Positions 20,308 through 36,027 of a DNA stretch of 64,000 bases are shown in pieces. Position 1 is the stretch's first letter. The number at the start of each line of letters is the position of its first letter. The notes under the pieces were generated by a model. That model saw only the letters and a list, made by a program, of their open reading frames with translations, made no database searches and was not told the origin of the DNA. Position numbers and translations under genes: made by a program. Source of the stretch: Microbacterium sp. W4I20 (GTDB taxonomy: Bacteria; Actinomycetota; Actinomycetes; Actinomycetales; Microbacteriaceae); assembly GCF_030816505.1 (NCBI RefSeq), contig NZ_JAUSYB010000001.1, positions 3,286,001 through 3,350,000 of the forward strand, in the 5' to 3' direction.

Positions 20308-21750
20308 ATGTACAGCCCCCTCGAGGTCGGTCAACTGCTGCAGTCCACGCTCGCAGAGCGCGCGAAAGCTCACGGAGTGCCCGCCGCCGCGGTCGCCGTG
20401 GTCGTCGACGGGGAGATCGTCGAGCATGCGGTCGGCGTCCTCAGCACGGCCACGAAGGTGGAGGCGACCACCGACTCGGTCTTCCAGATCGGCTCGATCA
20501 CCAAGGTGTGGACGGCGACGCTCGTCATGCAGCTGGTCGACGAGGGACTGGTCGAGCTCGACGCCCCGGTGCGTCAGTACCTCCCCGAGTTCGCGCTCGC
20601 CGACGACGCCGTCGCCGCCGCGATCACCGTGCGTCAGCTGCTCAGCCACCGCTCCGGCATCGAGGGAGACATCTTCACCGACACCGGTCGCGGCGATGAC
20701 GCGATCTCGACGTACCTGACGCTGCTGTCGGATGCCGGGCAGATCTTCCCTCCCGGATCGTTCTTCTCCTACAGCAACGCCGGGTATGTGGTGCTCGGTC
20801 GCCTCGTCGAGCGCGTGCGGGACACGACCTGGGAGCAGGCGCTGGTCGAGCGCATCGCGACACCGCTGGGCCTGCACACCGTCTCGCCGAGCCCGTACGA
20901 GGCGATCCTCCACCGCGCGGCCGTCGGGCACGTCGGCCCCGACGCCGACGGAGTGGCGCAGCCCGCGCCGTTCTGGGCGATGGCCCGCTCGAATGAGCCC
21001 GCCGGCTCCATGCTCGCGATGTCCGCCCGCGACCTCGCCGCGTTCGCGCAGGCGCATCTGCGGGCTGCCGCAGGGTCATCTGCCGCAGGTTCATCCGCCG
21101 CGGGTACCTCGGCCGGGGAGGCCCCGGAGGGTTCCGACGTGCTCTCGCAGGACGCAGCGCTCGCGATGCGGACCACCGAAGTTCGCCTGCCGCGACTGGC
21201 CGGAATGGGCGCGGCCTGGGGACTCGGCTGGGAGATCGATCGCGAGGGCGACGGGATGCTGTTCGGCCACGACGGCAACACGATCGGGCAGTCATCCTTC
21301 CTGCGGATCGCGCCGGATGCCGAAGCAGCCGTGGTGCTGCTCACCAACGGTGGCGACGGCGCCGGGCTGTTCCACGACGTGGTCGACGAGCTCCTCCGCG
21401 GCCTGGCCGACATCAGCCTCCCCGCACCGCCCACCCCGCCCGCGGCATCCGATGCTGACGAGAACGCCGACGTCGACTCCTTCCTCGGTGTCTACGCCAA
21501 CTCCACCGTCGAGATGGAGGTGTCCCAGGATGCCGAAGGCCGCCTGTGGCTCGAACAGCGTCCGACGCCAGAGCTCGTCGCCCTCGGAGCGGAGCCGTCG
21601 ACCGACGAGCTCGTCCGCTACGACGAGGGCTCGTTGATCCTCCGTGAGAACAAGGACGGGATGCACCTCGTGCTCGCGTTCCTCGAGCCCGCCGCCGATG
21701 GCCGGGCGTCGTACATCCACTTCGGTCGCGCCGTTCCGCGCTCGCGCTGA
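20308..21750 (+). CDS. Serine hydrolase of the beta-lactamase / penicillin-binding fold
   Basis: A 480-residue cytoplasmic serine hydrolase related to class C beta-lactamases, DD-peptidases and D-aminopeptidases. The catalytic Ser63-x-x-Lys66 (GSITKVW), Tyr155-Ser-Asn (FSYSNAGY) and the third motif HDGNTIG are all present. No signal peptide is seen, so it works on imported substrates. Residues ~385-480 form a C-terminal beta-barrel lipocalin-like domain. TAGAGT (20296-20301) six bases before the ATG implies a leaderless message. It closely resembles the second half of the fused gene at 27109 and precedes an oligopeptide importer. Hydrolysis of D-residue peptides or esters is the likely role. 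Confidence 0.88.
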   Translation: MYSPLEVGQLLQSTLAERAKAHGVPAAAVAVVVDGEIVEHAVGVLSTATKVEATTDSVFQIGSITKVWTATLVMQLVDEGLVELDAPVRQYLPEFALADDAVAAAITVRQLLSHRSGIEGDIFTDTGRGDDAISTYLTLLSDAGQIFPPGSFFSYSNAGYVVLGRLVERVRDTTWEQALVERIATPLGLHTVSPSPYEAILHRAAVGHVGPDADGVAQPAPFWAMARSNEPAGSMLAMSARDLAAFAQAHLRAAAGSSAAGSSAAGTSAGEAPEGSDVLSQDAALAMRTTEVRLPRLAGMGAAWGLGWEIDREGDGMLFGHDGNTIGQSSFLRIAPDAEAAVVLLTNGGDGAGLFHDVVDELLRGLADISLPAPPTPPAASDADENADVDSFLGVYANSTVEMEVSQDAEGRLWLEQRPTPELVALGAEPSTDELVRYDEGSLILRENKDGMHLVLAFLEPAADGRASYIHFGRAVPRSR

Positions 21751-21854
21751 CCTCTCGCACGTCGGCTCGCCGCGTCCGGCATCCGCACACACACGCTCAT
21801 CCCGATACACCCGAACATCCCGAACGATCCGCACCCATTGCCTGGAGGAACGTC

Positions 21855-23444
21855 ATGACACCGAAACGCACCGCCGTCACCGCCGTCGTCGCCGTGACCG
21901 CACTCATCGCCGCCCTTGCCGGCTGCGCACCCGCCGGAGAAGGGGGAGGCGGAGGGGGTGAGCTGGTCGAGGGCGGAACGTTCACGACGATCCTCGGATC
22001 CGATCCCGGGAGTCTCGACCCGCAGCTGTCGGCGGGCAGCGCGCTGTTCGACATCAGCAAGCTCGCCTACGACACGCTCGTCAGCATCGATGCCAAGGGT
22101 GAGGTGCGCAGCCAGCTCGCCTCGGAATGGAACGTCGACGGCACCACCGCGACGCTGAAGATCAACGAGGGCATCACCTGCGGCGACGGCAGCGAGTTCA
22201 CGGCGCAGACCGCCGCGGACAACCTGAACTGGATCTCGGATCCCGCCAACGAGAGCGGCTTCCTCGGCGCCTTCCTCCCGGTCGGCGTGACCAGCGTCGC
22301 CGAGGGCGACACCGTCACCATGACCCTCGCGAGCCCCGCGCCGTTCCTGCTGCTCGGCCTCGGCGGACTGCCGATGGTCTGCGGCAGCTCCCTCACCGAG
22401 CGCGACGGACTCGCCGCGGGCACCGACGGCACGGGCCCGTACGTGCTCACCGAAGCCGTGCCGAGCGACCACTACACGTACGAGCTCCGCGAGGACTACG
22501 CCTGGGGCCCCGGCGGCGCCACCGTGGACGAGAAGGGGATCCCGGCGAAGGTCAACGTGCGCGTGGTCGCCGACGGCACCACCGCGGCGAACCTTCTCCT
22601 CTCCGGCGAGGCGAACGCCGCCCAGCTCACCGGCCCCGACGCCGACCGGGCGATCAGCGCCGACCTGTTCACCCGCGAGGCCACGGCCATCGCCGGCGAG
22701 CAGTGGTACAACCACGCCGACGGACACCCGACCAGTGACCCCGCCGTCCGTCTGGCGCTCACGCAGGCCGTCGACCTCGACGAGCTCGCGAACGTGCTGA
22801 CGGCCGGCAAGGGCGGGCGGGCCACGGCCCTCGCCGTCGTCGAGCCGACGGTCTGCTCCTACGATGCGATCGAGGGATCCCTCCCGGAGTTCGACGTGGA
22901 TGCCGCCAACGCCACGCTCGACGAGGCCGGATGGGTGCGCGGCGCCGACGGCGTGCGCGAGAAGGACGGCACCCGCCTCAGCCTGACGTTCCTCTACGAG
23001 AACAGCCTCGGTGCGGCGGCCGCTGCCGCGGCTGAGCTCGCTCTCGCCGCCTGGGACGAGATCGGCGCCGAGGTCGAGGGCAAGCAGCAGGACGAGACGG
23101 CGCTGCTCGAGGCGACGTTCGGCACCGGCGCCTGGGACATCGGCTGGCTGACCCTGAGCGTGAACAGCCCCGACCAGGCGATCGGCTTCGTCAGCGGCAC
23201 GGTTCCGCCCGAGGGGTCGAACTTCTCGGCCATCGAGAACGAGGAGTACACCGCCGCGGTCGCCGAGGCCTCGCTGATGGACGGCAGCGAAGGCTGCGAC
23301 ACCTGGAACGAGGCCGAGAGCGCGCTGTTCGCGGCCGCCGACATGGTGCCGTTCGCCAACGCGACGGTCTACATGTTCGGCAACGGCGCCGAGTTCGAAT
23401 GGCTCGGAGTCATCGAGCCCACCAGCGTGCGGCTGGTCGGCTGA
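21855..23444 (+). CDS. Peptide ABC transporter substrate-binding lipoprotein
   Basis: A 529-residue family 5 (DppA/OppA) solute-binding protein. The N-terminus is a lipoprotein signal with lipobox LAGC and acyl-acceptor Cys24, followed by a Gly-rich tether. The body has the family pattern LVEGGTFTTILGSDPGSLDPQLS, YDTLVSIDAKGEV and ATLKINEGITCGDGSEFTA. ATG 21855 follows CTGGAGG. The permease genes start 38 bases downstream, so this is the extracytoplasmic receptor for the importer. The ligand may be a di- or oligopeptide or, given the neighbours, a peptide containing D-residues. Confidence 0.93.
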   Translation: MTPKRTAVTAVVAVTALIAALAGCAPAGEGGGGGGELVEGGTFTTILGSDPGSLDPQLSAGSALFDISKLAYDTLVSIDAKGEVRSQLASEWNVDGTTATLKINEGITCGDGSEFTAQTAADNLNWISDPANESGFLGAFLPVGVTSVAEGDTVTMTLASPAPFLLLGLGGLPMVCGSSLTERDGLAAGTDGTGPYVLTEAVPSDHYTYELREDYAWGPGGATVDEKGIPAKVNVRVVADGTTAANLLLSGEANAAQLTGPDADRAISADLFTREATAIAGEQWYNHADGHPTSDPAVRLALTQAVDLDELANVLTAGKGGRATALAVVEPTVCSYDAIEGSLPEFDVDAANATLDEAGWVRGADGVREKDGTRLSLTFLYENSLGAAAAAAAELALAAWDEIGAEVEGKQQDETALLEATFGTGAWDIGWLTLSVNSPDQAIGFVSGTVPPEGSNFSAIENEEYTAAVAEASLMDGSEGCDTWNEAESALFAAADMVPFANATVYMFGNGAEFEWLGVIEPTSVRLVG

Positions 23445-23482
23445 GCGCCGGCGCTGCAGGAGCCACGGATCGGATCGACGAT

Positions 23483-24478
23483 ATGACGACGCTGACGACG
23501 CGGATCGCGGAGGACGACAAGCGCCTCAGCGACCACCGCTGGCTGCGCTTCGCGATCCGCCGTGCCGGACGCCTGCTGGTCTCGCTGTGGATCCTGATCA
23601 CGGCATCCTTCCTGATGATCCACCTGGTGCCAGGGGATCCGATCCGCTCCGCCCTCGGCCCGACGGCTCCGGCCGCCGTGGTCGAGGCGCGGCGCGAGTC
23701 GCTCGGACTCAACAACCCGATCTGGCAGCAGTACCTCGACTACATCCGCGGCGTGTTCAGCGGCGATCTCGGGATCTCGATCGGATCGCAGCTGCCGGTC
23801 GCCGACACGATCGCCCAGCGCCTGCCGGCCACTCTGCTCCTCGCCGTCCTGGCCTTCGTGGTCGCCGTGCTCATCGCGATCCCGGTCGGCATGGCGGTGG
23901 CGGTCGCCACGCAGCGCGGCCGGGCACGGGGGCTCGAGGTCGGCTTCAGCTCGACCAGCGTCGTGATCGGCTCGATCCCGGACTTCCTGCTCGCCGTCGC
24001 ACTCGTCGCGGTGTTCGGCGTGCAGCTCGGATGGCTGCCGGTCGCGGGGCGGGAGGGTCCGCTGTCGTACATCCTCCCGGTGCTCGCGCTGGCCCTCGGG
24101 CCGGCCGCGATCCTCGCCCGCATCCTCCGCATCGAGGTGCTCTCGGTGCTCGAGACCGACTTCGTCCGCACGGCTCAGGCCAAGCGGCTCCGCACGCCGA
24201 GGATCAACCTGCGCCATGTGCTGCCCAATGCCGTCACGGCGACTCTCACCCTCGGCGGCCTGCTGCTCAGCGGCCTCGTCGCCGGAACCGTGCTGGTCGA
24301 GACCGTGTTCGCGTGGCCGGGCCTCGGCAGCACGATCGTGAGCTCGATCCAGTCGAAGGACTATCCGCTCGTGCAGGGCACCGTGCTCGTCTACGGCGTC
24401 GGTGTGCTGCTCGTGAACACCCTGGTCGACGCGGCGCTCGCCGTGCTCGACCCCCAGTCGACGGCGGCCGCAGCATGA
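23483..24478 (+). CDS. ABC transporter permease (DppB type)
   Basis: A 331-residue inner-membrane permease of the dipeptide/oligopeptide/nickel family. It opens with a basic cytoplasmic stretch, then a first helix (LLVSLWILITASFLMIHLV) followed by PGDPIRSALGPTAP, the large extracytoplasmic loop, and five more helices. The EAA loop that contacts the ATPase is VLETDFVRTAQAKRLR. ATG 23483 is chosen because it places the helix correctly and lies at normal spacing from the previous gene. The stop overlaps the next start (ATGA). It pairs with the DppC-like half of the fused gene. Confidence 0.92.
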   Translation: MTTLTTRIAEDDKRLSDHRWLRFAIRRAGRLLVSLWILITASFLMIHLVPGDPIRSALGPTAPAAVVEARRESLGLNNPIWQQYLDYIRGVFSGDLGISIGSQLPVADTIAQRLPATLLLAVLAFVVAVLIAIPVGMAVAVATQRGRARGLEVGFSSTSVVIGSIPDFLLAVALVAVFGVQLGWLPVAGREGPLSYILPVLALALGPAAILARILRIEVLSVLETDFVRTAQAKRLRTPRINLRHVLPNAVTATLTLGGLLLSGLVAGTVLVETVFAWPGLGSTIVSSIQSKDYPLVQGTVLVYGVGVLLVNTLVDAALAVLDPQSTAAAA

Positions 24479-26295
24479 GGCGCACACTCGCGGCGATGCT
24501 GCGCACCCCGCTCGGAGCGACCGCGCTCGCCCTGCTCGCACTCGTGGTCCTCACCGCGATCATCGCGCCGCTCCTCTGGGGCGCGCAGGCGGATGCCACG
24601 GACACCGGCGACCTGCTCGCCGGGCCCTCCGCCGAGCACCTGGTCGGCACCGACAACCTCGGCCGCGACCTGCTGCTCCGCACGATCGTCGCCACGAGGC
24701 TGTCGATCGTGCTGGCCCTGCTGGCCACGCTCGTCTCGGTGGTCGCCGGCCTCGTGCTCGGGGTCGCGCCGCTGCTGCTCGGCAGCTTCCTCGGGCGGGC
24801 GATGACCTGGTTCACCGGCATCGCCGTGGCCTTCCCGGGCCTCCTCCTCGCCCTGTTCTTCGCCGCGATCTTCGGCAGCACCGCCACCGCGGCCGTGTTC
24901 GCCCTCGGTCTCGCCGGCGCCCCCTCGTTCGCCCGGCTGTGCCAGAACCTCATCGCCGGCATCGAGGCGCGCGACTTCGTCTCGGCCGCGCGGGTCGGCG
25001 GCATCGGACGCTTCAAGGTGCTGTTCCGTCACGTGCTCCCGAACATCGGAGAGCCGCTCATCGTGAACGCGACGATCGGCGCCGGCGGGGCACTCCTCGC
25101 GTTCGCCGGGCTCTCGTTCCTCGGCCTCGGCGTGCAGCCGCCCGACTACGACTGGGGACGTCTGATGATGGACGGCCTTCGCGGCATCTACGCGAACCCG
25201 CTCGCCGCACTCGCACCCGGTCTCGCGGTGGTCGTCGCCGGTCTCGCTTTCAACCTCACCGGCGAATCGGCGGCCCGGAGCCTCGGCATCTCGGACGACG
25301 TGCTGCTGAGCAGTGTCGTGGGTCCGCGCCGGATGCGGCGGACGCTCGCCAAGCAGGCCGCTGCCGCGGACGCGACTCCCGCACCCGCCGGGGGACCCGT
25401 GCTCGAGGTCGAGGATCTGCGCGTCGACTTCGAGGCCGCCGGAGGGAAGATCGTGCACGCGGTGCGCGGCATCGACCTCACGGTGGCCGAGGGCGAGATC
25501 GTCGGGATCGTGGGCGAGTCCGGCTCGGGCAAGTCGATGACAGCCCTCGCCGTCGCCCAGCTGGTCTCGTCGCCCGGACGGGTCGAGGCATCCGCTCTCC
25601 GCTTCCTCGGCGTCGATCTGCGCACGGCGGGCAAGGCGAAGCTCCGCCGCCTGCTCGGCACCTCGATGGCGATGGTCTTCCAGGACCCGATGTCGTCGTT
25701 CAACCCGACCATGCGCATGGGCGACCAGCTCGCCGAGGTCGCGACCGAGCACGCGGGGCTGAGTCGTCGCGAGGCGCTGGCGCGCGCCACCGACCGCCTC
25801 GCCGCGGTGCGGATCAGCGCTCCGAAGCGCCGGGTGCGGCAGTATCCGTACGAGTTCTCCGGCGGGATGCGTCAGCGAGCCATGATCGGGATGGGCCTGA
25901 TGGTCTCGCCGAAGCTGATCATCGCCGACGAGCCGACGACCGCCCTCGATGTGACGGTGCAGGCGCAGGTGCTCGATCTGCTGCGTGCCATCCGCGACGA
26001 GGAGGGCACGTCGATCCTCTTCATCAGCCACGACATCTCCGTCGTCGCCGAACTCTGCGACCGGGTGCTGGTGATGCGCTCCGGCGAGATCGTCGAAGAG
26101 CTCCAGGCCACCGACCTGTCGTCGGCTCGGCATCCGTACACCCGCGCGCTGCTCGCTGCGGTGCCGCACATGGGCACCGACCTCGACCGCCCGCTGGCGA
26201 CGCTCGCCACGGTCGCGGCGGAGGAGGAGCGCGTGGCCGATCCGGCCCCGACGACGGCGAACGATCACGATGCGCAGGAGGTGGGGAGCAGATGA
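24475..26295 (+). CDS. Fused ABC transporter permease (DppC type) and ATPase (DppD type)
   Basis: A 606-residue fusion. Residues 1-290 are a DppC-like permease (first helix TALALLALVVLTAIIAPLLW; HLVGTDNLGRDLLLR; EAA loop IEARDFVSAARVGGI). A short Ala/Pro linker leads to a complete ABC ATPase: Walker A GESGSGKS at 347-354, the Q-loop MVFQDPMSSFNP, signature FSGGMRQRAM, Walker B LIIADEPTT and the His switch FISHD. The C-terminal tail has the HPYTRALLAAVP peptide-importer motif. Such fusions recur in actinobacteria. Both neighbours overlap it by ATGA, so the four-gene transporter is one translational unit. Confidence 0.93.
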   Translation: MRRTLAAMLRTPLGATALALLALVVLTAIIAPLLWGAQADATDTGDLLAGPSAEHLVGTDNLGRDLLLRTIVATRLSIVLALLATLVSVVAGLVLGVAPLLLGSFLGRAMTWFTGIAVAFPGLLLALFFAAIFGSTATAAVFALGLAGAPSFARLCQNLIAGIEARDFVSAARVGGIGRFKVLFRHVLPNIGEPLIVNATIGAGGALLAFAGLSFLGLGVQPPDYDWGRLMMDGLRGIYANPLAALAPGLAVVVAGLAFNLTGESAARSLGISDDVLLSSVVGPRRMRRTLAKQAAAADATPAPAGGPVLEVEDLRVDFEAAGGKIVHAVRGIDLTVAEGEIVGIVGESGSGKSMTALAVAQLVSSPGRVEASALRFLGVDLRTAGKAKLRRLLGTSMAMVFQDPMSSFNPTMRMGDQLAEVATEHAGLSRREALARATDRLAAVRISAPKRRVRQYPYEFSGGMRQRAMIGMGLMVSPKLIIADEPTTALDVTVQAQVLDLLRAIRDEEGTSILFISHDISVVAELCDRVLVMRSGEIVEELQATDLSSARHPYTRALLAAVPHMGTDLDRPLATLATVAAEEERVADPAPTTANDHDAQEVGSR

Positions 26296-27041
26296 GTGAA
26301 CTCCGCTTCGAGGAGGTCTCGGTGCGCTACGGCGTCGGACGAGGCGCCATGACGGCGGTCGACCGGGTGTCGCTCGTCGTGCCCGACGGCGGAGTCACCG
26401 GCGTGGTCGGAGAGTCCGGCTCGGGCAAGTCGACCCTCGCGCGGGCCGCCGTCGGTCTCGTGCCGCTGCACGGCGGGCGCATCCTGCTCGACGGGGCGCC
26501 CATCCCGCGTCGCGGTCCCCGCCCGCTGCAGATGGTGTTCCAGGACCCGTACTCGTCGCTCGACCCGCGGATGCCGGTGGGCGCGAGCATCGCCGAGATG
26601 ATGCCGTCGGGCATGACCCGCCGTGCCCGCGATGCCGAGGCCGCACGGCTGCTGGAGCTCGTGCACCTGGATCCGGCGCAGGCGGGCTCGCGTCCGTCGC
26701 GCTTCTCGGGCGGCCAGCGCCAGCGGATCGCGATCGCCCGCGCGCTCGCCGGTCGGCCGCGGGTGCTGATCGCCGACGAGATCACCTCGGCGCTCGACGT
26801 GCTCATCCAGGGCGCGATCCTCAACCTGCTGCGCGAGCTGCAGACCGAGCTCGGCTTCTCGATGCTGTTCATCTCGCACAACCTCGCCGTGGTCCGCTAC
26901 GTCGCCTCGCAGATGGCCGTGATGCGCGACGGCCGGGTCGTCGAGCAGGGGCCGACGGGCGCGGTGCTCGAGGACCCGCAGGATTCCTACACCCGAGAGC
27001 TGCTCGCGGCGATTCCGAGTCCGATCCAGTACACGCCCTGA
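26292..27041 (+). CDS. ABC transporter ATP-binding protein (DppF type)
   Basis: A 249-residue ATPase, the second nucleotide-binding subunit of the peptide importer. Walker A GESGSGKS lies at 40-47; MVFQDPYSSLDPR is the Q-loop, FSGGQRQRIAIARAL the signature, LIADEITSALD the Walker B, and FISHNLAVVR the switch. The Walker B Pro is replaced (DEIT instead of DEPT), a common variant. It forms the heterodimer with the ATPase half of the fused gene. It ends the transporter block 67 bases before the S9 peptidase gene, whose own GAAGGAG site could still be on the same transcript. Confidence 0.93.
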   Translation: MSELRFEEVSVRYGVGRGAMTAVDRVSLVVPDGGVTGVVGESGSGKSTLARAAVGLVPLHGGRILLDGAPIPRRGPRPLQMVFQDPYSSLDPRMPVGASIAEMMPSGMTRRARDAEAARLLELVHLDPAQAGSRPSRFSGGQRQRIAIARALAGRPRVLIADEITSALDVLIQGAILNLLRELQTELGFSMLFISHNLAVVRYVASQMAVMRDGRVVEQGPTGAVLEDPQDSYTRELLAAIPSPIQYTP

Positions 27042-27108
27042 CCCGACGACAGACCACACGACCGACCAGATCCCCGGCGCCACGAGCGCCACAACCGAAG
27101 GAGTCCCC

Positions 27109-30100
27109 GTGACCCGCAGGATGAGTATCGACGATGCCCTCGCGCTGACCGTTCCGAGCCAGCCCACGCTGTCGCCGTCGGGCGACCGGGTGGTCTACGT
27201 GCTCGGCGGCACGGATGTCGCGGCCGACAAGAGCACCAGCGCGCTGTGGATCGCCGAAGACGGCGACACCCGCGCACTGACGCACGGCACCGCCGACTCG
27301 AGCCCGGTGTTCTCGCCGGACGGCACCCAGATCGCGTTCCTGCGCGACGGACAGCTCTGGACCCTTCCGCTCGCGGGCGGCGAGCCGCAGCAGCGCACCA
27401 CCCTCCCGCTCGGCGCCGGTGCTCCGGTGTGGAGCCCCGACGGCGCGCAGATCGCGTTCACGGCAGCCGTCGTGCCGCCGTCGGCTCCCTCCGCTCCGAC
27501 GGATGCCGAGGAGACCGAGGAGCAGCGCGCGAAGCGCGAGCAGGCGCCGATCGTCACCGCCGGCATCGACTACCTCGCCGACGGCGCCTGGTTCACCCGC
27601 GGCGTCAGCGCGCAGCTGCACGTCGTGAGCCTGGCGGACGGCCGGGTGCGCCGCCTCACCGACGGTGTCGCGGGTGTCGGCAGTCCCGCCTGGTCGCCGG
27701 ACGGCACGACCCTCACCTACGTCGCGCGGCCCGAGGGCATCGACGACCTCGACTTCCGATCCGCTGTGCATGCGCTCGACCCGGCCGATCCCGCCGCCCG
27801 TCCGCGCGTGCTCGCCTTCGCCGAGGGCTATGCCGGCATCGTCTCGTTCGCCCCCGACGGCGAGTCCCTGCTGGTGGTCGGCTGGACCGGCGACCCCGAC
27901 GCCCACACGGGGCTCTTCCGCGTCGACCTCGCCTCGGGCGAAGTGGCGGATCTCGCCGGCGCGCTCGACCGCAACGTGATGCCCGGAGCACCCGCCTATC
28001 CCGGAGCCCTGCCGCAGGTGACGGCATCCGGCGACGTGCTGTTCGCGATCCGCGACCGCGGCGCCACCCACCTCTACGCCGTGCCGCTCGACGGCGGCAC
28101 GCCGCGCCACGTGCACGGCGGCACCGACGAGGTCGTCAGCGGTCTCTCGGTCGCCGGCGATGTCGCGGCCGTCGCGATGTCGACGCCGACGTCGTTCGGC
28201 GAGATCCTGCGCCTCGACCTCTCGGCCGGCGACGCCACCACGCTCACCGCGCACGGTGCGGCACCCGAGGGTGTCGAGCTCTTCGTGCGGGAGAGCCGCG
28301 AGTTCACGATCAGCGACGGCACCGTCGTGCAGGCCTGGATCGTGCGCGACCCGTCTGTCGACGGACCGACGCCGCTGCTGGTCGACATCCACGGTGGGCC
28401 GCACAACGCCTGGAACGGCGCGGTCGACGAGATGCACGTCTACCACCAGCAGCTGGCCGCCGACGGCTGGACGATCGTCATGATCAACCCGCGCGGCAGT
28501 GACGGCTACGGCGAGGAGTTCTGGAAGGGCGTCAACGGCGCCTGGGGCGTCGACGACGCGAAGGACTTCCTCGAGCCGGTCGACGAGCTGGTCGCCGAGG
28601 GAACGGCGGATGCCGCGCGCCTCGCGGTCGCCGGCTACAGCTACGGCGGCTACATGAGCGCCTACCTCACCGGGCACGACGACCGCTTCGCCGCGGCCGT
28701 CACCGGCGGGATCGTGGCCGACCTGTTCAGCATGGGCGGCTCCAGCGACGACGCGCACCTGCTCAGCCTGTTCGAGGTCGGCATCATGCCCTGGCAGTCC
28801 GAGGGGCGCGAGCGGCTGGCCGCCATGTCGCCGTACACGTACGTCGAGAACGTGAAGACCCCGACCCTCGTGCTGCACGGCGAGAAGGACCTGCGCTGCC
28901 CCGTGCACCAGGCGCAGCAGTGGCACTACGCCCTGCGCGAGCGCGAGGTCCCCACCGAGCTCGTGATCTACCCGGGTGGCAGTCACGTGTTCCCGCTGCT
29001 GGGCGCACCGAGCCACCGCGTCGACTACGCCCGCCGCATCGTCGAGTGGGTCGAGCGCTTCGCCGGCAGCACCCGGGGCGCCCGGCCGGCCGCGATCGAC
29101 GCCGCGCACTGGCAGCACCGGCTCGACACGCTGGCGGCACTGCACGGGGTTCCGGGTGCGCAGCTCGGCATCCTCCGCTACGACGCCGACGGTCGCGACG
29201 ACGTCGTGACGGTGGCGACCGGCGCCCTGAACCGCAACCTCCCGGAGGCCTCGGGCACGGTGCTGGCCGACTCGGTCTTCCAGATCGGCTCGATCTCGAA
29301 GGTCTGGACGGCGACCGCGATCATGCGGCTCGTCGAGCAGGGCGCCTTCACGCTCGAGACGCCGGTGCACGAGATCCTGCCCGGCGTGCGCCTCGTGAAC
29401 GACGAGCTCACCGCCGGCGTCACCGTGCGGCACCTGCTCACGCACACCAGCGGCATCGACGGCGACGTGTTCACCGACACCGGCCGCGGCGACGACACCC
29501 TCGAGAAGTACACCGCGCTGCTCGCCGAGACCGGACAGAATCACCCGCTCGGGGCAACGTGGTCGTACTGCAACTCGGGCTTCTCGCTGCTCGGGCGCCT
29601 CATCGAGCAGGCCACCGGAAAGGTCTGGGACGAGGCGATGCGCGAGCTCGTGTTCACGCCCCTCGGCCTCACCCACACGGTCACCCTGCCCGAGGAGGCG
29701 ATCCTGCACTCCGCGGCCGTCGGTCACGTCGACGTCGGCGAGGAGTCGGTCATCGCCCCGGTCTGGGCGCTGCCGCGCTCGTTGGGACCGGCCGGCCTCA
29801 TCACCGCCCGCGCCGAGGACGTGCTCGCCTTCGCGCGACTGCACCTCGCGGGCGGCGTCGCCGCCGACGGCACCCGTCTGCTCAGCGAGGCCACCGTCGA
29901 CGAGATGCAGGCCTTCCAGGCCGAGGTGCCCGACAAGCACGTGCTCGGCGACTCGTGGGGGCTGGGCTGGATCCGCTTCGACTGGAACGGCGAGCGGCTC
30001 TACGGTCACGACGGCAACACGATCGGTCAGGCGGCGTTCCTCCGGATCCACGCGGAGTCGGGCGTCGCGGTGACGCTGCTCACGAACGGCGGGCACACCC

Positions 30101-30499
30101 GCGACCTCTACCAGGACCTCTACCGCGAGATCTTCGCCGAGCTGTCGGACGTGCGGATGCAGGACTCGGTGCAGCCGCCGGCCGAGCCGGTCGACGTCGA
30201 CATCACGCCCTACCTCGGCACGTACGAGCGGGCATCCGTCCGCGCGGAGGTGCTCATCGGCGAGGACGGACCGCTGCTCCGCACGACCGTGCTGGGCCCG
30301 CTCGCCGAACTCGAGCCCGACCCGGTCGACGAGTACCCGCTCACCCCGTTCAGCGACGGCGTCTTCGCGCTGCGCGCCCCCGGCACACAGACCTGGATGA
30401 CGGCGTTCGCTGCCGACCGGCGAGGAGTACCTGCACTTCGGGGCACGGGCCACGCCGAAGGTGTCGTCCGAGACCCCGAAGGTGTCGACCGACGCATGA
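27109..30499 (+). CDS. S9 prolyl-oligopeptidase-type peptidase fused to a serine hydrolase; frameshifted near its 3' end
   Basis: Residues 1-650 are an S9 (acylaminoacyl/dipeptidyl peptidase) protein: WD-like PDGTQIAFLRDG repeats form the propeller, then the alpha/beta hydrolase with Ser511 in GYSYGGYMS, Asp in HGEKDLRCPV and His in PGGSHVF. From ~660 a beta-lactamase-fold hydrolase follows without a break: Ser728-x-x-Lys731 (GSISKVW), YCN, HDGNTIG. Near 30403-30412 the frame shifts by one base: the in-frame text loses homology while the other frame reads LPTGEEYLHFG, matching YIHFG in the paralogue at 20308, and stops at 30497-30499 over the M20 ATG. As written, translation runs on to 31638 as one 1509-residue chain. 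A real mutation or an assembly error are both possible. Confidence 0.8.
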
Positions 30500-31638
30500 C
30501 TCCCTCCTCGCAGCTCACCGCCGATCCGCTGACGGAGACGGCGATCCTCGCCAGCATCCGTCGGCTGATCGAGTGCGAGTCGCCGTCCGACGACCTCGCG
30601 GCCGTGGTGCGATCGGCAGACGTGGTCGCCGAGATCGGCGCCGAGCTGCTCGGGGTCGCTCCGGAGCGCATCGTCGTCGACGGGACCACGCACCTGCGGT
30701 GGCGCTTCGGCGCGGCCACGCGGGTGCTGCTGCTCGCCCATCACGACACGGTGTGGCCGTTCGGCACGCTCGAGCGGCTGCCGTTCGGGGTCGTCGACGG
30801 GGTGCTGCGCGGGCCCGGCGGCTTCGACATGAAGACGGGGCTCGCGATGTGCCTGCACGCGATCGCCGCGCTCGACGACCGCGACGGTGTGACGCTGCTC
30901 GTGACCGGCGACGAGGAGACCGGGTCGATCCGCTCGCGTGCTCTGATCGAGGAGACCGCGACCGGGGCATCCGCCGCGCTGGTGCCCGAGGCGTCGGCCG
31001 ACGGCGGCGCGTGGAAGGCGGCCCGCAAGGGTGTGTCGATGTACGACGTCGAGGTGCACGGGAAGGCAGCGCACGCGGGCCTGGAGCCGGAGAAGGGCGT
31101 CAACGCCACGGTCGCGCTCGCGCACCTGGTGCTGACCGTGGCCGGGCTCGGCGACGCCGAGGCCGACACGAGTGCGACTCCCACGCTCGCCGGGTCAGGC
31201 TCGACCAGCAACACGGTCCCCGCCGAGGCCCGGCTGCGCATCGACGTGCGCGCCTGGTCGAGCGCCGAGCTCGAGCGCGTGGACCAGGCGCTCCGCGCGT
31301 ATGTCTCACCCGTGCCCGGTGCGCGGATCACGGTGCACGGCGGCATCAACCGGCCGCCGCTCGCATCGGAGATGTCGCAAGGACTCGTCGAACTCGCCCG
31401 TGCGCTCGGCGTACGACACGGCCTGGGGGACGTGCAGGCGGTGGCCGTCGGCGGGGGCAGTGACGGCAACTTCACCGCAGGCGCGGGGGTGCCCACCCTC
31501 GACGGAATGGGGGCCGTCGGGGGCGGGGCGCACGCCGAAGACGAACACGTGATCGTGGCGGAGATCGTTCCGCGCACACGACTGCTGGCCGACATGGCGG
31601 CGGAGATATCGAGAACGGACGGGCCATGGCTCAATTGA
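30496..31638 (+). CDS. M20 family metallohydrolase, likely N-succinyl/acyl-L-amino acid deacylase
   Basis: A 380-residue M20 peptidase of the carboxypeptidase G2/ArgE/DapE type. Zinc ligands are visible in LLLAHHDTVWP, GPGGFDMKTG, and VTGDEETGS (catalytic and metal Glu), with the dimerisation-domain His in GKAAHAG and the last ligand in GGGAHAEDEH. ATG 30496 is chosen because it overlaps the displaced stop of the upstream gene (ATGA) and begins just before the conserved first helix; the upstream frame only joins it through a frameshift. The next two genes encode a COG3375 acyltransferase and an N-succinylamino acid racemase, so it probably removes the succinyl group from N-succinyl-L-amino acids. 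Confidence 0.85.
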   Translation: MTPSSQLTADPLTETAILASIRRLIECESPSDDLAAVVRSADVVAEIGAELLGVAPERIVVDGTTHLRWRFGAATRVLLLAHHDTVWPFGTLERLPFGVVDGVLRGPGGFDMKTGLAMCLHAIAALDDRDGVTLLVTGDEETGSIRSRALIEETATGASAALVPEASADGGAWKAARKGVSMYDVEVHGKAAHAGLEPEKGVNATVALAHLVLTVAGLGDAEADTSATPTLAGSGSTSNTVPAEARLRIDVRAWSSAELERVDQALRAYVSPVPGARITVHGGINRPPLASEMSQGLVELARALGVRHGLGDVQAVAVGGGSDGNFTAGAGVPTLDGMGAVGGGAHAEDEHVIVAEIVPRTRLLADMAAEISRTDGPWLN

Positions 31639-32435
31639 CGCGCGACGACGCGATCGTCCCCGCGGCGCAGCACGATGCGGAACGGGCAGCCGCGGCATCC
31701 GGGGTGATCATCCGCGAGCTGTCGGCGGTGGCCGAGCATGCCGATGCCATCGAGCTGCTCTCGACGATCTGGCAGCGTTCGCCGGAGAACCCCGTGGTGC
31801 CTCCGGAACTGATGCGCGCCCTCAGCAAGGCGGGCAACTACATCGGCGGCGCCTTCTCCGGTGACGAGCTGGTCGGGGTCGCGATCGCCTTCCACGCCGA
31901 TCCCGGACGGCACGCGCTGTACAGCCACATCGCCGGGATCTCGGCCGCGCACGCCGGACACTCGGTCGGCTTCGCCCTCAAGCAGCATCAGCGCGCGTGG
32001 GCGCTGAGCCGCGGCATCGGCGCGATCGAGTGGACCTTCGACCCGCTGGTCGCGCGCAACGCGCACTTCAACATCACCAAGCTCGGCGCCTGCCCGCAGG
32101 AGTACCTCTCGGACTTCTACGGGCCGATGGCCGACGGGGTGAACACCGACGACGAGACCGATCGCCTGCTCATCCGCTGGGAGCTGGGCGACCCGGGCGT
32201 CGCGTTCCGGGCCGGCGGCACGCCGCCGCCCCCCTTCGAGCGGATGCCGGGCGATCTCGCCGTCGCGATCCCCGCCGACATCGAGCGGATCCGCCGCGAG
32301 GACCGCTCCGAGGCGCAGCGCTGGCGGTTCCGCGTGCGCGAACAGCTCACCGGCGCGCTCGAGGACGGCGGCCGCATCGTCGGGTTCGACCGCGGCGAGG
32401 GGTACATCATCCGACCGAAGGAGGAGACGTCGTGA
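31626..32435 (+). CDS. COG3375 GNAT acyltransferase, likely succinyl-CoA:D-amino acid N-succinyltransferase
   Basis: A 269-residue acyltransferase. The family-defining stretches are LYSHIAGISAAHAGHSVGFAL (CoA-binding loop), QRAWALSRGIGAIEWTFDPL, ARNAHFNITKLGA and DRLLIRWEL. Members of COG3375 that adjoin NSAR genes N-succinylate D-amino acids, as characterised in the Geobacillus kaustophilus pathway. Its ATG overlaps the M20 end by 13 bases and its stop overlaps the racemase start (GTGA). The tight order hydrolase-acyltransferase-racemase is what the pathway predicts. The substrate side chain cannot be read from the sequence. Confidence 0.85.
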   Translation: MAQLTRDDAIVPAAQHDAERAAAASGVIIRELSAVAEHADAIELLSTIWQRSPENPVVPPELMRALSKAGNYIGGAFSGDELVGVAIAFHADPGRHALYSHIAGISAAHAGHSVGFALKQHQRAWALSRGIGAIEWTFDPLVARNAHFNITKLGACPQEYLSDFYGPMADGVNTDDETDRLLIRWELGDPGVAFRAGGTPPPPFERMPGDLAVAIPADIERIRREDRSEAQRWRFRVREQLTGALEDGGRIVGFDRGEGYIIRPKEETS

Positions 32436-33538
32436 AGATCGACGGGATCGAACTGCGACGGGTGGCGATGCCGCTGGTGTCGCCGTTCCGCACATCGTTC
32501 GGCACGCAGACCGCGAAGGACATCCTGCTGGTGCGGGCCGTGGTCGACGGGGTCGAGGGGTGGGGCGAGTGCGTGACGCTGCCGGACCCGGTCTACTCGC
32601 CCGAGTACACCGACGGCGCGGCCGACATGCTGCGCCGGTTCATCGTGCCCGCGTTGACCGGGGTCGAACTGTCGGGCGCGCACATGATCGGCGAGCTCTT
32701 GAAGCCCTTCAAGGGGCATCGGATGGCGAAGGCCGCGATCGAGACCGCGGTGCTCGACGCCGAGCTGCGCATCGAGGGGCGGTCGTTCGCGCGGGAGCTC
32801 GGCGCCGTGCACGACACCGTGCCGTGCGGGGTGTCGGTCGGCATCATGGACGAGATCCCGCGGCTGCTCGACGCCGTCGACGGCTACCTCTCCGAGGGCT
32901 ACGTGCGCATCAAGCTCAAGATCGAGCCCGGCTGGGACATCGACGTCGTGCGCGCCGTACGCGAGCGCTTCGGCGACGACGTGCTGCTGCAGGTCGACGC
33001 GAACACCGCGTACACGCTGCGCGACGCCCAGCACCTCGCGCGCCTCGACGCGTTCGACCTGTTGCTGATCGAGCAGCCCTTGGAGGAGGAGGACATCCTC
33101 GGCCACGCCGACCTCGCCAAGATGCTGCGCACCCCGATCTGCCTCGACGAGTCGATCACCTCGGCGCAGACCGCCGCCGCGGCGATCCGCCTCGGCGCCA
33201 CCAGCGTCATCAACATCAAGCCCGGCAGGGTCGGCGGATACCTCGAGGCGCGACGCATCCACGACCTCGCCGTCGCACAGGGCGTACCCGTCTGGTGCGG
33301 CGGGATGGTCGAGTCCGGCCTCGGTCGCGCGGCCAACGTCGCGCTCGCCGCTCTTCCCGGCTTCGTGCTTCCGGGAGACGTGTCGGCCAGCGACAGGTTC
33401 TACCGCGTCGACCTCACCGAGCCGTTCGTCATGCACGAGGGCACCCTGGCCGTGCCGCAGGGCCCGGGTCTCGGCGTCGCGCCGATCCCCGAGATCCTCG
33501 ACGAGCTGACGACCTCGACCGAGTGGCTGCCGATGTGA
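32432..33538 (+). CDS. N-succinylamino acid racemase / o-succinylbenzoate synthase family enolase
   Basis: A 368-residue enolase-superfamily enzyme of the NSAR/OSBS/NAAAR branch. The acid/base lysines Lys163 (RIKLKIEPG) and Lys263 (INIKPGRVGG) and the Mg ligands Asp189, Glu214 and Asp239 (QVDAN, LLIEQPL, CLDES) fall at the same numbers as in the Amycolatopsis NSAR/OSBS. It would racemise N-succinyl (or N-acyl) amino acids. No menaquinone gene is nearby, which argues against a MenC role; the M20 hydrolase and COG3375 transferase before it argue for D- to L-amino acid conversion. GTG 32432 overlaps the previous stop and lies after GAGGAG. Confidence 0.9.
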   Translation: MKIDGIELRRVAMPLVSPFRTSFGTQTAKDILLVRAVVDGVEGWGECVTLPDPVYSPEYTDGAADMLRRFIVPALTGVELSGAHMIGELLKPFKGHRMAKAAIETAVLDAELRIEGRSFARELGAVHDTVPCGVSVGIMDEIPRLLDAVDGYLSEGYVRIKLKIEPGWDIDVVRAVRERFGDDVLLQVDANTAYTLRDAQHLARLDAFDLLLIEQPLEEEDILGHADLAKMLRTPICLDESITSAQTAAAAIRLGATSVINIKPGRVGGYLEARRIHDLAVAQGVPVWCGGMVESGLGRAANVALAALPGFVLPGDVSASDRFYRVDLTEPFVMHEGTLAVPQGPGLGVAPIPEILDELTTSTEWLPM

Positions 33539-33584
33539 CGGCATCCGATATACCGGCCGCCGGAGGGACATTAGGCTCGCCCCT

Positions 33585-35219
33585 ATGAGCCCGCTGTCGC
33601 GATCGAGCTGGGGACGCGTCTTCGACGACCTCGGCGTGACGCTGCTCGAAGTCGCCCACGGCCGCATCCTGGTCGATCAGCAGATCGGCGGGGTGGTCAT
33701 CCACGACCCCGTGGACGAGCCGATGTATCCGCAGAACGCCGTGGTGCTCGCGGTGGCCGTGCAGGACGCGCACGCCCTGGCCACACTCGTCTCCACCGCG
33801 GGTGAGCGCGGGGCCGTCGCGGTGGTCGTCCGTGCCTCGACCGAACTGCCGGATGCCGTGCGCAACGCCTCCGACCGCGCGGGCGTCGCGATCCTCAACC
33901 TCGCGCGCGGCGCGACCTGGACCCAGCTCGCGGCCCTGTTGCGCTCGCTGCTCGCCGAGGACGACGTCGGGCAGACGCCGGCCGAGTCGCTCGGCGGGGT
34001 GTCGTCCGGCGATCTGTTCGCGGTGGCCAACGCGATCGCCGCCCTGCTCGACGCGCCGGTCACCATCGAGGACCGATCATCGCGCGTGCTCGCGTTCTCG
34101 GGCGGGCAGGAGCAGGCGGACCCGTCGCGGGTGGAGACCATCATCGGCCGACAGGTGCCCGATCGCTACGCGCGCGTTCTCACCGAGATGGGCGTCTTCC
34201 GCGACCTGTACCGCGGCGATGCCCCGGTCGTGGTCGATCCGGTGCGGCTCGGCGAGGGCGTCTCCACGCAACGCATCGCGATCGCCGTGCGCGCCGGCGA
34301 CGAGGTGCTCGGCTCGATCTGGGCCGCGATGGACGGCCCCCTCACCGCGGAGCGCACGGCCACGCTCCGCGACGCGACCAAGCTCGTCGCGCTGCACCTG
34401 CTGCGGATCCGCGCCGGCGCCGATGCGCAACGCAGCCTGCGCGCCGAGCTGGTGAGCCGCGCCGTGAACGGGGGAGCCGACGCGCAGGACGCCCTGGGCC
34501 GACTCGGCCTCAGCGGCCGCCGGGTGTGGGTGACCGCCGCCGCCCTGGCTCCGCGCGACGCCGACGGGACGGAGCACGACTCGATCGCGGAGCGCGAACG
34601 CCTCACCGACGCGCTGGCGCTGCATCTGTCGGCCGTGCAGCAGGGCGCCGCCGTCGCGCTCGTCGGAGACACCGTCTACGGCATCCTCCCGGTGGGTGAT
34701 GCCGCCGCCGAGGACCGATCCGTGCGGCTCGCCGAGGACTTCCTGCAGCGCGTCGGCGAGCGCATCCCCGCGCTCATCGGGGTCGGACGTCCCGCCGCGA
34801 CCGTCGCCGAGATTGCCCGCTCCCGCGCCGAGGCGCACCGCGCGCTGCGGGTCGTGACCGAGCGCGCCGCCGACCGACCCGGCGCCGAGCCCCGGGTCGC
34901 CCGGATCGGCGACGTCGAGACCGAATCGCTGCTGCTCGACCTGCGCGACCTGCGCAGCTCCCGGGGAGACGTCGCGTCGGGCGTGCTCGCCCGCCTCATC
35001 GAGTACGACGACCGCAACGATGCCCACCTGGTCGACACCCTGACCGCGTGGCTCGACCGGTTCGGCGACGTGACCTCCGCCGCGGCGGCATGCTTCGTGC
35101 ATCCGAATACCTTCCGATACCGGCTGCGCCGCGTGTCCGAGGTGGGCGGCGTGGACCTCGACGATCCGGATGCGCGGTTCGCGGCGATGCTGGAGATCCG
35201 GACGCTCCCCGCGCGCTGA
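33585..35219 (+). CDS. PucR family transcriptional regulator
   Basis: A 544-residue regulator. The N-terminal ~130 residues form a purine-catabolism-like domain (VFDDLGVTLLEVAHGRILVDQQIGG is split across it), the middle is a GGDEF-like/CdaR sensor, and the C-terminus is the PucR helix-turn-helix, with DVTSAAAACFVHPNTFRYRLRR. It lies 46 bases after the racemase on the same strand. TAGGCT (33572-33577) seven bases before the ATG gives it its own leaderless promoter. PucR/CdaR proteins usually activate nearby catabolic genes in response to the substrate, so it is the likely controller of the D-amino acid/peptide cluster upstream. Confidence 0.9.
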   Translation: MSPLSRSSWGRVFDDLGVTLLEVAHGRILVDQQIGGVVIHDPVDEPMYPQNAVVLAVAVQDAHALATLVSTAGERGAVAVVVRASTELPDAVRNASDRAGVAILNLARGATWTQLAALLRSLLAEDDVGQTPAESLGGVSSGDLFAVANAIAALLDAPVTIEDRSSRVLAFSGGQEQADPSRVETIIGRQVPDRYARVLTEMGVFRDLYRGDAPVVVDPVRLGEGVSTQRIAIAVRAGDEVLGSIWAAMDGPLTAERTATLRDATKLVALHLLRIRAGADAQRSLRAELVSRAVNGGADAQDALGRLGLSGRRVWVTAAALAPRDADGTEHDSIAERERLTDALALHLSAVQQGAAVALVGDTVYGILPVGDAAAEDRSVRLAEDFLQRVGERIPALIGVGRPAATVAEIARSRAEAHRALRVVTERAADRPGAEPRVARIGDVETESLLLDLRDLRSSRGDVASGVLARLIEYDDRNDAHLVDTLTAWLDRFGDVTSAAAACFVHPNTFRYRLRRVSEVGGVDLDDPDARFAAMLEIRTLPAR

Positions 35220-35268: not shown

Positions 35269-36027
35269 GTGACTCAGACGATCGCCCTGGAGATGGCCGT
35301 GCAGGATGCTGCGGGAGTCCGCGTCGCCGCGGAGATCGGCGCCGCGCGCGTCGAGCTCGCGACCGCCCTCGCGCTCGGAGGTCTCACCCCGTCGCAGGCG
35401 ACTCTCGAACTCGCCGTCGAGACCGCGGGCGCGGACGGCCCGGAGGTGCATGTGCTGATCCGCCCGCGCGGCGGCGGGTTCCACTTCACCGCCGACGAGC
35501 TCGCCGTCTCGGAGCGCGACGTGCGCCGGGCGATCGAGGCCGGGGCCGCCGGTGTGGTGATCGGTGCGCTCGATGCCGACGGCACCCTCGACCTCGACGC
35601 GACGGCGCGCCTGCGCGATGCCGCCGGCGGAGCATCCGTCACCCTTCATCGTGCGATCGACGTGACAGCCGACCCCGTCGCGACCCTCCGCGCGGCTCGC
35701 GTGCTCGGCCTCCACCGCGTGCTCACCTCGGGCGGAGCATCCGCCGCGATCGACGGGATCGACACCCTCCGGGCGCTCGTGGCCGCCGCCGAGGGCGAGA
35801 TCGAGATCATGGCCGGCAGCGGGGTGGATGCGGCGAGCGCACCGGCGCTCGCCGCGGTCGGCGTCGACGCCCTGCACTTCTCCGCGAAGCGCACCGTGCA
35901 CGAGACCGGCGGAGTGCGGATGGGCTCGGCGTCCGAGGGCGTCGGCGGCTACGAGGTGACCGACCGCGACATCGCGCTCGGGATCTGCGCGGCGCTCGGG
36001 CGGTGGCGGGCGCAGAGCCGTTCGTGA
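35269..36027 (+). CDS. cutC: CutC family copper homeostasis / TIM-barrel protein
   Basis: A 252-residue CutC protein, a TIM barrel once linked to copper tolerance and now of uncertain enzymatic role. The conserved start (EMAVQDAAGVRVAAEIGAARVEL), IRPRGGGFHFT, VTLHRAIDVTADP, VLTSGGA and LHFSAKR are all present. GTG 35269 is supported by CAGAAT six bases upstream. The last residues and stop codon lie in the first unit of a 16-bp tandem repeat, so repeat slippage would alter the C-terminus or stop position. It has no operon partner. Confidence 0.9.
   Translation: MTQTIALEMAVQDAAGVRVAAEIGAARVELATALALGGLTPSQATLELAVETAGADGPEVHVLIRPRGGGFHFTADELAVSERDVRRAIEAGAAGVVIGALDADGTLDLDATARLRDAAGGASVTLHRAIDVTADPVATLRAARVLGLHRVLTSGGASAAIDGIDTLRALVAAAEGEIEIMAGSGVDAASAPALAAVGVDALHFSAKRTVHETGGVRMGSASEGVGGYEVTDRDIALGICAALGRWRAQSRS

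Follow-up and report, generated by a model that had tools for sequence, protein, structure and literature searches.

A conserved actinobacterial gene island joining a peptide-type importer and penicillin-fold hydrolases to N-succinylamino acid racemase, a candidate system for D-residue peptide catabolism

N-succinylamino acid racemase (NSAR) has been investigated for decades, both for its use in industry and as a textbook case of promiscuous catalysis among enolase-superfamily enzymes; its natural role rests, to our knowledge, mainly on one Geobacillus operon. Geobacillus kaustophilus reportedly possesses an operon with a GNAT acyltransferase, NSAR and an M20 hydrolase, which together turn D-amino acids into the L-form via their N-succinyl derivatives. 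A gene island with the same three enzyme families side by side is described here in Microbacterium sp. W4I20 (genome of 4.31 Mb), at positions 20308–35219 on the + strand of the window, as the whole 64,000-nucleotide stretch analyzed is called below. Its NSAR has all catalytic residues, the likeness to the Geobacillus pathway being one at the family level. Unlike that pathway, the island joins the three enzymes to a peptide importer, an S12 serine hydrolase (S12a) and an S9 peptidase fused to a second S12 domain (S9::S12b). The combination is conserved in related genomes, and we give a probability of roughly two in three to its being a catabolic system for D-residue peptides that ends in the N-succinyl D-to-L pathway. 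As to the pathway itself, excerpts of PMC8762209 cite the title of Sakai et al. 2006 and mention the GNAT.

For NSAR, also known as N-acylamino acid racemase (NAAAR), the excerpts of PMC8142540 and PMC7431475 cover mechanism, kinetics and synthetic use, with no genomic context. Another related system is the murein-peptide operon ykfABCD-dpp of Bacillus subtilis, in which, according to excerpts of PMC2954226, a peptide ABC importer is linked to an enolase-superfamily epimerase and D-residue peptidases. Importer, enolase-superfamily enzyme and putative peptidases at D-residues are likewise combined in the island. The enzymes of ykfABCD-dpp are, however, an L-Ala-D/L-Glu epimerase, an LD-carboxypeptidase and NlpC/P60, all three undetected among the ten window proteins scanned, and the island, unlike it, would handle free D-amino acids by succinylation. 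No description of the full combination was found in the open-licence PMC literature, in agreement with an earlier sequence-only reading of this DNA, which had proposed a D-amino-acid peptide salvage system and knew of no precedent. The component enzymes and the importer are known parts; as far as the open-licence PMC literature shows, the novelty comprises the conserved combination, the constant permease–ATPase fusion and S9::S12 as a close companion of NSAR.

Conservation of the island

Nine open frames lie on the + strand between the two ends of the island. A Pfam scan placed all the proteins named in the sequence-only reading in the families it had given, on one strand as claimed; its count of ten genes falls to nine frames since M20 shares the frame of S9::S12. 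It had also described the genes as mostly overlapping, which overstates the case: half of the eight junctions overlap, one by 13 bases and three by 4, and gaps of 38–104 bases separate the genes at the rest. Promoter and terminator scans of the window found none, with averages of 0.4 and 1.8 in shuffled sequence.

Linkage was examined in loci anchored on S9::S12 and chosen independently of NSAR, namely the best 80 of 579 matches (the most similar ones) found when GTDB species genomes were searched with an S9::S12 profile; flanks reaching at most 10 kb were included. By tblastn, the solute-binding protein was present in 65 of these 80 loci, the permease in 67, NSAR in 55, GNAT in 57, M20 in 49 and a relative of the PucR-type regulator in 57. 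S12a was found by gene call in 56, its tblastn count (80/80) not being meaningful because S12b matches the S12a query. GNAT, NSAR and M20 were all present in 44 loci, and 32 held, by gene call, the solute-binding protein, both permeases, ATPase 1, S9::S12, M20, GNAT and NSAR together. These complete loci span 14 named genera: Microbacterium, Nocardioides, Actinophytocola, Actinoallomurus, Qaidamihabitans, Rhodococcus, Amycolatopsis, Kribbella, Prauserella, Actinomadura, Aeromicrobium, Paractinoplanes, Kibdelosporangium and Phycicoccus. The anchored islands occupy nearly always a single strand and mostly have one gene order, the GNAT–NSAR and M20–GNAT spacings are operon-like with a median of -4 bases, and the fusion of permease 2 with ATPase 1, found in 66 of the 68 loci having permease 2, is a constant feature of the island. 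Distances between the proteins correlated at 0.61–0.89 over 30 loci, which is not evidence, as species kinship alone could give such values.

Among the 25 anchored loci without NSAR, 17 genomes were examined and 16 had the gene. It belonged to the same island, slightly outside the flank, in six (L167, L177, L183, L185, L200 and L207, extended as L229–L234), elsewhere in the genome for another six (L142, L145, L164, L184, L161 and L196) and in the other island of the same genome for L195 (L162). In L179, L193 and L204 it stood close to the end of a different contig, consistent with a contig break but no proof of one.

A similar picture was obtained from surveys starting with NSAR. Within the genus, NSAR was found at E 1e-80 in 104 of 149 genomes, and 40 loci were read, 20 from the top of the NSAR list and 20 across its range; the full set of solute-binding protein, permease, permease–ATPase fusion, ATPase, S9::S12b, M20, GNAT and NSAR was present in 17. 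In the class survey, 58 of 197 genomes had NSAR (E 1e-50) and 28 matched S9::S12 at E 1e-100, 17 of them over nearly the whole query and 11 over one half. All 17 genomes with the full-length protein fall within the 58 with NSAR, which in 16 lies on the same contig, 1.9–7.5 kb from S9::S12, the exception being a draft of approximately 440 contigs (Fisher test, p 1.4e-10, kinship ignored, 13 of the 17 belonging to one family). Forty class-survey loci were read, a selection that omits the weaker paralogues and some other loci; of these, 12 had the complete set and 2 more were cut at the edge. Over the 80 NSAR-centred loci together, a GNAT gene was present in 68; in L121 and L123 the NSAR gene itself was not called, though tblastn finds one. 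Chance neighborhood is ruled out by the linkage counts in the same-genus, class-wide and anchored loci, and the cluster is real. The neighborhood survey that the sequence-only reading had suggested thus finds the combined cluster conserved in related genomes, fused permease–ATPase included.

Two modules can be distinguished, one of M20-GNAT-NSAR-PucR, able to stand alone, and one of S12a-SBP-permease-permease::ATPase-ATPase-S9::S12b (SBP, solute-binding protein), which in a minority of loci stands without the first. In Amycolatopsis, M20-GNAT-NSAR-PucR precedes the importer genes, and in Amycolatopsis dendrobii (L229, genome of L167) the order is F2-GNAT-NSAR-PucR-F1-S12a-F1-SBP-permease-permease::ATPase-ATPase-S9::S12b, with no M20 labelled in the stretch and with two additional families, F1 and F2, described below. 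That the two modules are joined again and again, in varying order, is the main argument for their working together.

Enzymes, importer and regulator

The NSAR of the window (32432–33538, +) is an MR_MLE enolase. Its base pair K163/K263, the metal ligands D189/E214/D239 and R266 are present in 80 of 80 aligned members, window included (here and below, counts of conserved residues are from alignment columns), and the residues Lys163, Lys263, Asp189, Glu214 and Asp239 had been placed exactly by the sequence-only reading. R266, presumably a residue favoring racemization and one on which no paper was found in the open-licence PMC literature, is a position at which the structure 7s8w differs from 1sja. 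The latter, a solved N-acylamino acid racemase (NAAAR/NSAR), is 71% identical to the window NSAR and 97.3% identical to the island NSAR of A. dendrobii. Amycolatopsis NSAR racemizes N-succinyl-phenylglycine according to the kinetic table of a review, seen in excerpt (PMC8142540). The window enzyme is a candidate racemase of N-succinylamino acids, with the 71% identity to 1sja as the nearest proxy. NSARs approximately 69% identical to it occur in L092, L094, L095 and L096 with no GNAT or M20 in the stretch. The one in L094 lies beside a GntP-type transporter, an MBL-fold protein and a mycothiol-dependent-enzyme-type protein, a different context for the same racemase.

The preceding gene (31626–32435, +) encodes a Pfam GNAT protein, a candidate D-amino acid N-succinyltransferase. 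Its fold was confirmed, 21 of 36 aligned members matching PF00583 and 21 matching PF13480; against solved structures, the sequence search gave nothing at E 0.001 and the profile search weak hits only, the best at E 0.047. The M20 part (Peptidase_M20; 30496–31638, +, with its own ATG) has its metal-ligand residues, and the seven columns checked were constant in 48 of 48 aligned members, window included.

S12a (20308–21750, +; PF00144, 223 bits) carries the motifs SxxK (S63/K66), Y155-x-N157 and H321-x-G323, and these catalytic columns were constant in 60 of 60 aligned proteins, window included. The catalytic residues of S9::S12b were constant in 81 of 81, the Ser-Asp-His of S9 included. The S12 fold was compared for S12a only, whose AlphaFold2 model (predicted local distance difference test score, pLDDT, 89.5) is nearest to IS11 esterase and SurE, followed by D-amino acid amidase, D-peptidase, ClbP, R61 and AmpC lactamases. 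The R61 DD-peptidase, D-amino acid amidase, alkaline D-peptidase, ClbP and the cyclase SurE have the same fold and the SxxK/YxN/HxG residues, at 23–34% identity to S12a over the structural alignment. Peptidases, esterases and lactamases are not told apart by this fold, and cleavage at D-residues is a putative activity of S12a. The S9 half aligns over its full length with 8wt1 (E 4e-87) and 5yzm (E 1e-74), both S9 acyl-peptide hydrolases/peptidases, from which the window protein differs by the fusion of its S9 part to an S12 domain.

A simple hydropathy scan, with 1.9 as the cut, was passed by 32 of 66 solute-binding proteins and by none of the S12a, S9::S12, M20, GNAT or NSAR proteins, and the S12 and other island enzymes are, thus, probably cytoplasmic. 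Unlike the S12 hydrolases compared above, those of the island would be intracellular, and one copy is fused to an S9 peptidase.

The importer is complete by Pfam, consisting of a family 5 solute-binding protein (SBP_bac_5, 152 bits; 21855–23444, +), permease 1 of the peptide type (BPD_transp_1; 23483–24478, +), permease 2 fused to ATPase 1 in a single frame (BPD_transp_1 and ABC_tran; 24475–26295, +) and ATPase 2 (ABC_tran; 26292–27041, +). The solute-binding protein is a probable lipoprotein, with a hydrophobic N-terminus (2.55 on the hydropathy scan) and an LAGC motif read by eye. The oligo_HPY domain scored 20.2 bits on ATPase 1, under the Pfam cut-off of 27.1, and was not listed on ATPase 2; among the NCBIfam families shown, the importer proteins reached no equivalog cut-off for a ligand. 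A PucR-type protein with HTH_30 and GGDEF_2 (33585–35219, +) closes the island and might be its regulator.

Two extra partners fit a chemistry of D-residues. The amidohydrolase F2, closest among solved structures to D-aminoacylase (E 9e-22) and N-acyl-D-glutamate deacylase, exceeds the NCBIfam cut-off of PRK09061 (616 versus 340 bits), presumably a D-glutamate deacylase model. It is found in 18 of the 80 NSAR-centred loci and beside or near NSAR in 10 of 15 further NSAR loci (L229, L233–L241), a recurrence that points independently to D-amino acid chemistry; the window genome has a weak, split match to F2 only. The second partner, F1, is a protein of the class-A-lactamase fold (PF13354) with no hydrophobic N-terminus on the hydropathy scan, found in 21 of the 80 NSAR-centred loci. 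F1 (e.g., L051:1091-1996) is inserted in many islands, sometimes twice, flanking S12a.

Proposed peptide catabolism and its alternatives

In the catabolic route proposed here, the lipoprotein and the ABC importer would bring small peptides into the cytoplasm, where the free S12a and the S12 domain of the fusion would cut at D-residues and the S9 half at L-residues, so that peptides of mixed chirality could be dismantled by a single polypeptide. The freed D-amino acids would be N-succinylated by GNAT and racemized in this form by NSAR, and the N-succinyl-L form would be hydrolyzed by M20 to the L-amino acid and succinate. The steps after D-amino acid release are modelled on the published pathway, and the earlier ones are suggested by fold, residues and linkage. 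It may further be proposed, with more hesitation, that a widespread actinobacterial system for mixed-chirality peptides is the native setting of NSAR, with a two-headed hydrolase as its centerpiece, in which L-residues would be removed by the S9 half and D-residues by the S12 half, both acting on one and the same imported peptide.

If true, an island common to many soil actinobacteria would import small D-containing peptides, cut them and flip the D- to the L-form, and NSAR would gain, through a peptide-type importer and peptide hydrolases, a concrete and testable natural role. The fused S9::S12 hydrolase would be a place to look for degraders of protease-resistant D-peptides, such as soil peptide antibiotics and cell-wall fragments.

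Several observations weigh against this interpretation. The island's two halves can occur apart: among the 40 same-genus loci, nine have M20-GNAT-NSAR, usually with PucR, without solute-binding protein, permeases and S9::S12, and ten have GNAT and NSAR, not always adjacent, without M20 (the remaining four being L047, cut off, L049, with NSAR alone, and the variants L070 and L083), while one (L191) of the 17 genomes examined for anchored loci without NSAR has no such gene at all. S12a has an esterase as its best structural match, with D-peptidases and AmpC lactamases scoring about equally; the nearest solved structure to M20 is carboxypeptidase G2 (E 3.5e-34) and no desuccinylase. The best NCBIfam models of the solute-binding protein and permease are of the "nickel" type, all under cut-off, and NSAR matches TIGR01928 (o-succinylbenzoate synthase, NCBIfam) over cut-off, at 303 bits. 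F2 lies within the flank in only 2 of the 80 anchored loci. The hydropathy scan is weak, with the window S12a at 1.86, barely below the cut. Finally, the tail of S12b, strongly conserved across 13 diverse homologues, is replaced in the window by unrelated frameshifted residues, and the domain may, therefore, be non-functional in this strain.

A possible, though rather doubtful, alternative is that the same machinery is specialized for peptidoglycan stem peptides (muropeptides), as an actinobacterial counterpart of ykfABC-dpp. The fold of S12a is near the R61 DD-peptidase and D-Ala carboxypeptidases, an M19-like dipeptidase gene lies between the ATPase and S9::S12 in the Streptomyces island L196, and the Microbacterium genome has a second island (G000:C1:160000-179000, L125). 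The latter comprises, besides M20, a GNAT and an NSAR paralogue (42% identical), an S66 LD-carboxypeptidase and an M19 dipeptidase, along with an S12 enzyme, a SIS-domain protein and a peptide-type importer; a further importer set at its end was read by eye. The theme is the same, with an apparent leaning more to cell-wall peptides. However, among the ten window proteins scanned, neither an S66 LD-carboxypeptidase nor NlpC/P60 was detected, and the dipeptide-epimerase models reached 85 and 53 bits against cut-offs of 500 and 343. Moreover, a succinyl route would suit many residues, not D-Ala and D-Glu alone. The salvage system of the sequence-only reading is supported by the conserved combined cluster, and the extra partners F1 and F2 fit its D-residue chemistry; peptidoglycan as the source of the peptides is not supported.

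It is unlikely that the importer and the S12/S9 enzymes serve to salvage other esters or N-acyl compounds, be they lipoamino acids, N-acyl-D-amino acids or peptides of the cyclic or lasso type, with NSAR recycling N-acylamino acids. Such a role would agree with IS11 esterase as the best fold for S12a, closely followed by SurE and Ulm16, both peptide cyclases, with the resemblance of F2 to deacylases of N-acyl-D-amino acids, and with a match of the S9 part to the lasso isopeptidase family, albeit far below cut-off (98 versus 400 bits). The GNAT gene in 68 of the 80 NSAR-centred loci suggests, on the other hand, acylation within the cell instead of import of the acyl group.

A role in importing and degrading beta-lactams, for nutrition or tolerance, in which the penicillin-fold enzymes would be lactamases, is very improbable: at least two such enzymes are present per island, along with the class-A-type F1 in about a quarter of the NSAR-centred loci, but, among the families shown, the lactamase models stay far under their cut-offs (S12a 73 versus 415 bits for class C, F1 89 versus 200), the enzymes look cytoplasmic, and no reason is given for GNAT and NSAR. 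Still less credible is NSAR as an o-succinylbenzoate synthase for menaquinone with unrelated neighbors. The window NSAR does match TIGR01928 over cut-off, a family that presumably holds both activities, but a separate actinobacterial-type MenC above the PRK02901 cut-off is present in 17 of 17 genomes with the fused hydrolase, own genome included (in G292 the match contains a stop), so that NSAR is not needed in this role. NSAR is also tightly linked to GNAT, and no other menaquinone gene was found among the ten window proteins scanned. A racemase acting only as o-succinylbenzoate synthase, which the sequence-only reading had named as fatal to its proposal, is thereby contradicted; the peptide catabolism preferred here would, in turn, explain why genomes keep NSAR beside a true MenC.

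The continuous S9–S12b–M20 frame and neighboring genes

In the window strain, S9 (residues ~1–655; Peptidase_S9), S12b (~665–1120; PF00144) and M20 (~1130–1509) form a single uninterrupted frame of 1509 amino acids with no stop (27109–31638, +), and M20 as the separate gene of the sequence-only reading is wrong for this sequence. In relatives, M20 is a separate gene, S9::S12b being 951–1161 amino acids long in 80 gene calls from the anchored loci, and the M20 frame differs from that of S12b in 16 of 16 relatives where both were located. The best 120 of 1232 matched homologues have at most 1158 amino acids and cover at most 74% of the query, M20 being covered by none. Near the end of S12b (30350–30600), the window is a net eight bases shorter than four aligned relatives, and the start codon of M20 is retained. 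A triple S9–S12–M20 fusion as a new kind of enzyme was rejected as a general feature on these lengths, the homologue coverage and the eight-base difference; by sequence comparison, it appears to be a peculiarity of the window strain or an assembly error.

The next gene downstream of the island, CutC at 35269, is labelled in 4 of the 80 anchored loci, all Microbacterium, and was not counted as a member of the cluster. In seven loci (L091, 15535-17217, and six others), PucR is followed by a protein of approximately 560 amino acids, located before an IMPDH/GMP-reductase-type gene; the one member scanned had no Pfam or NCBIfam match. The loci L075–L078, L080–L082 and L084, with GNAT and NSAR and without M20 or the island importer, often contain a short-chain dehydrogenase (F8) or an MFS transporter (F9).

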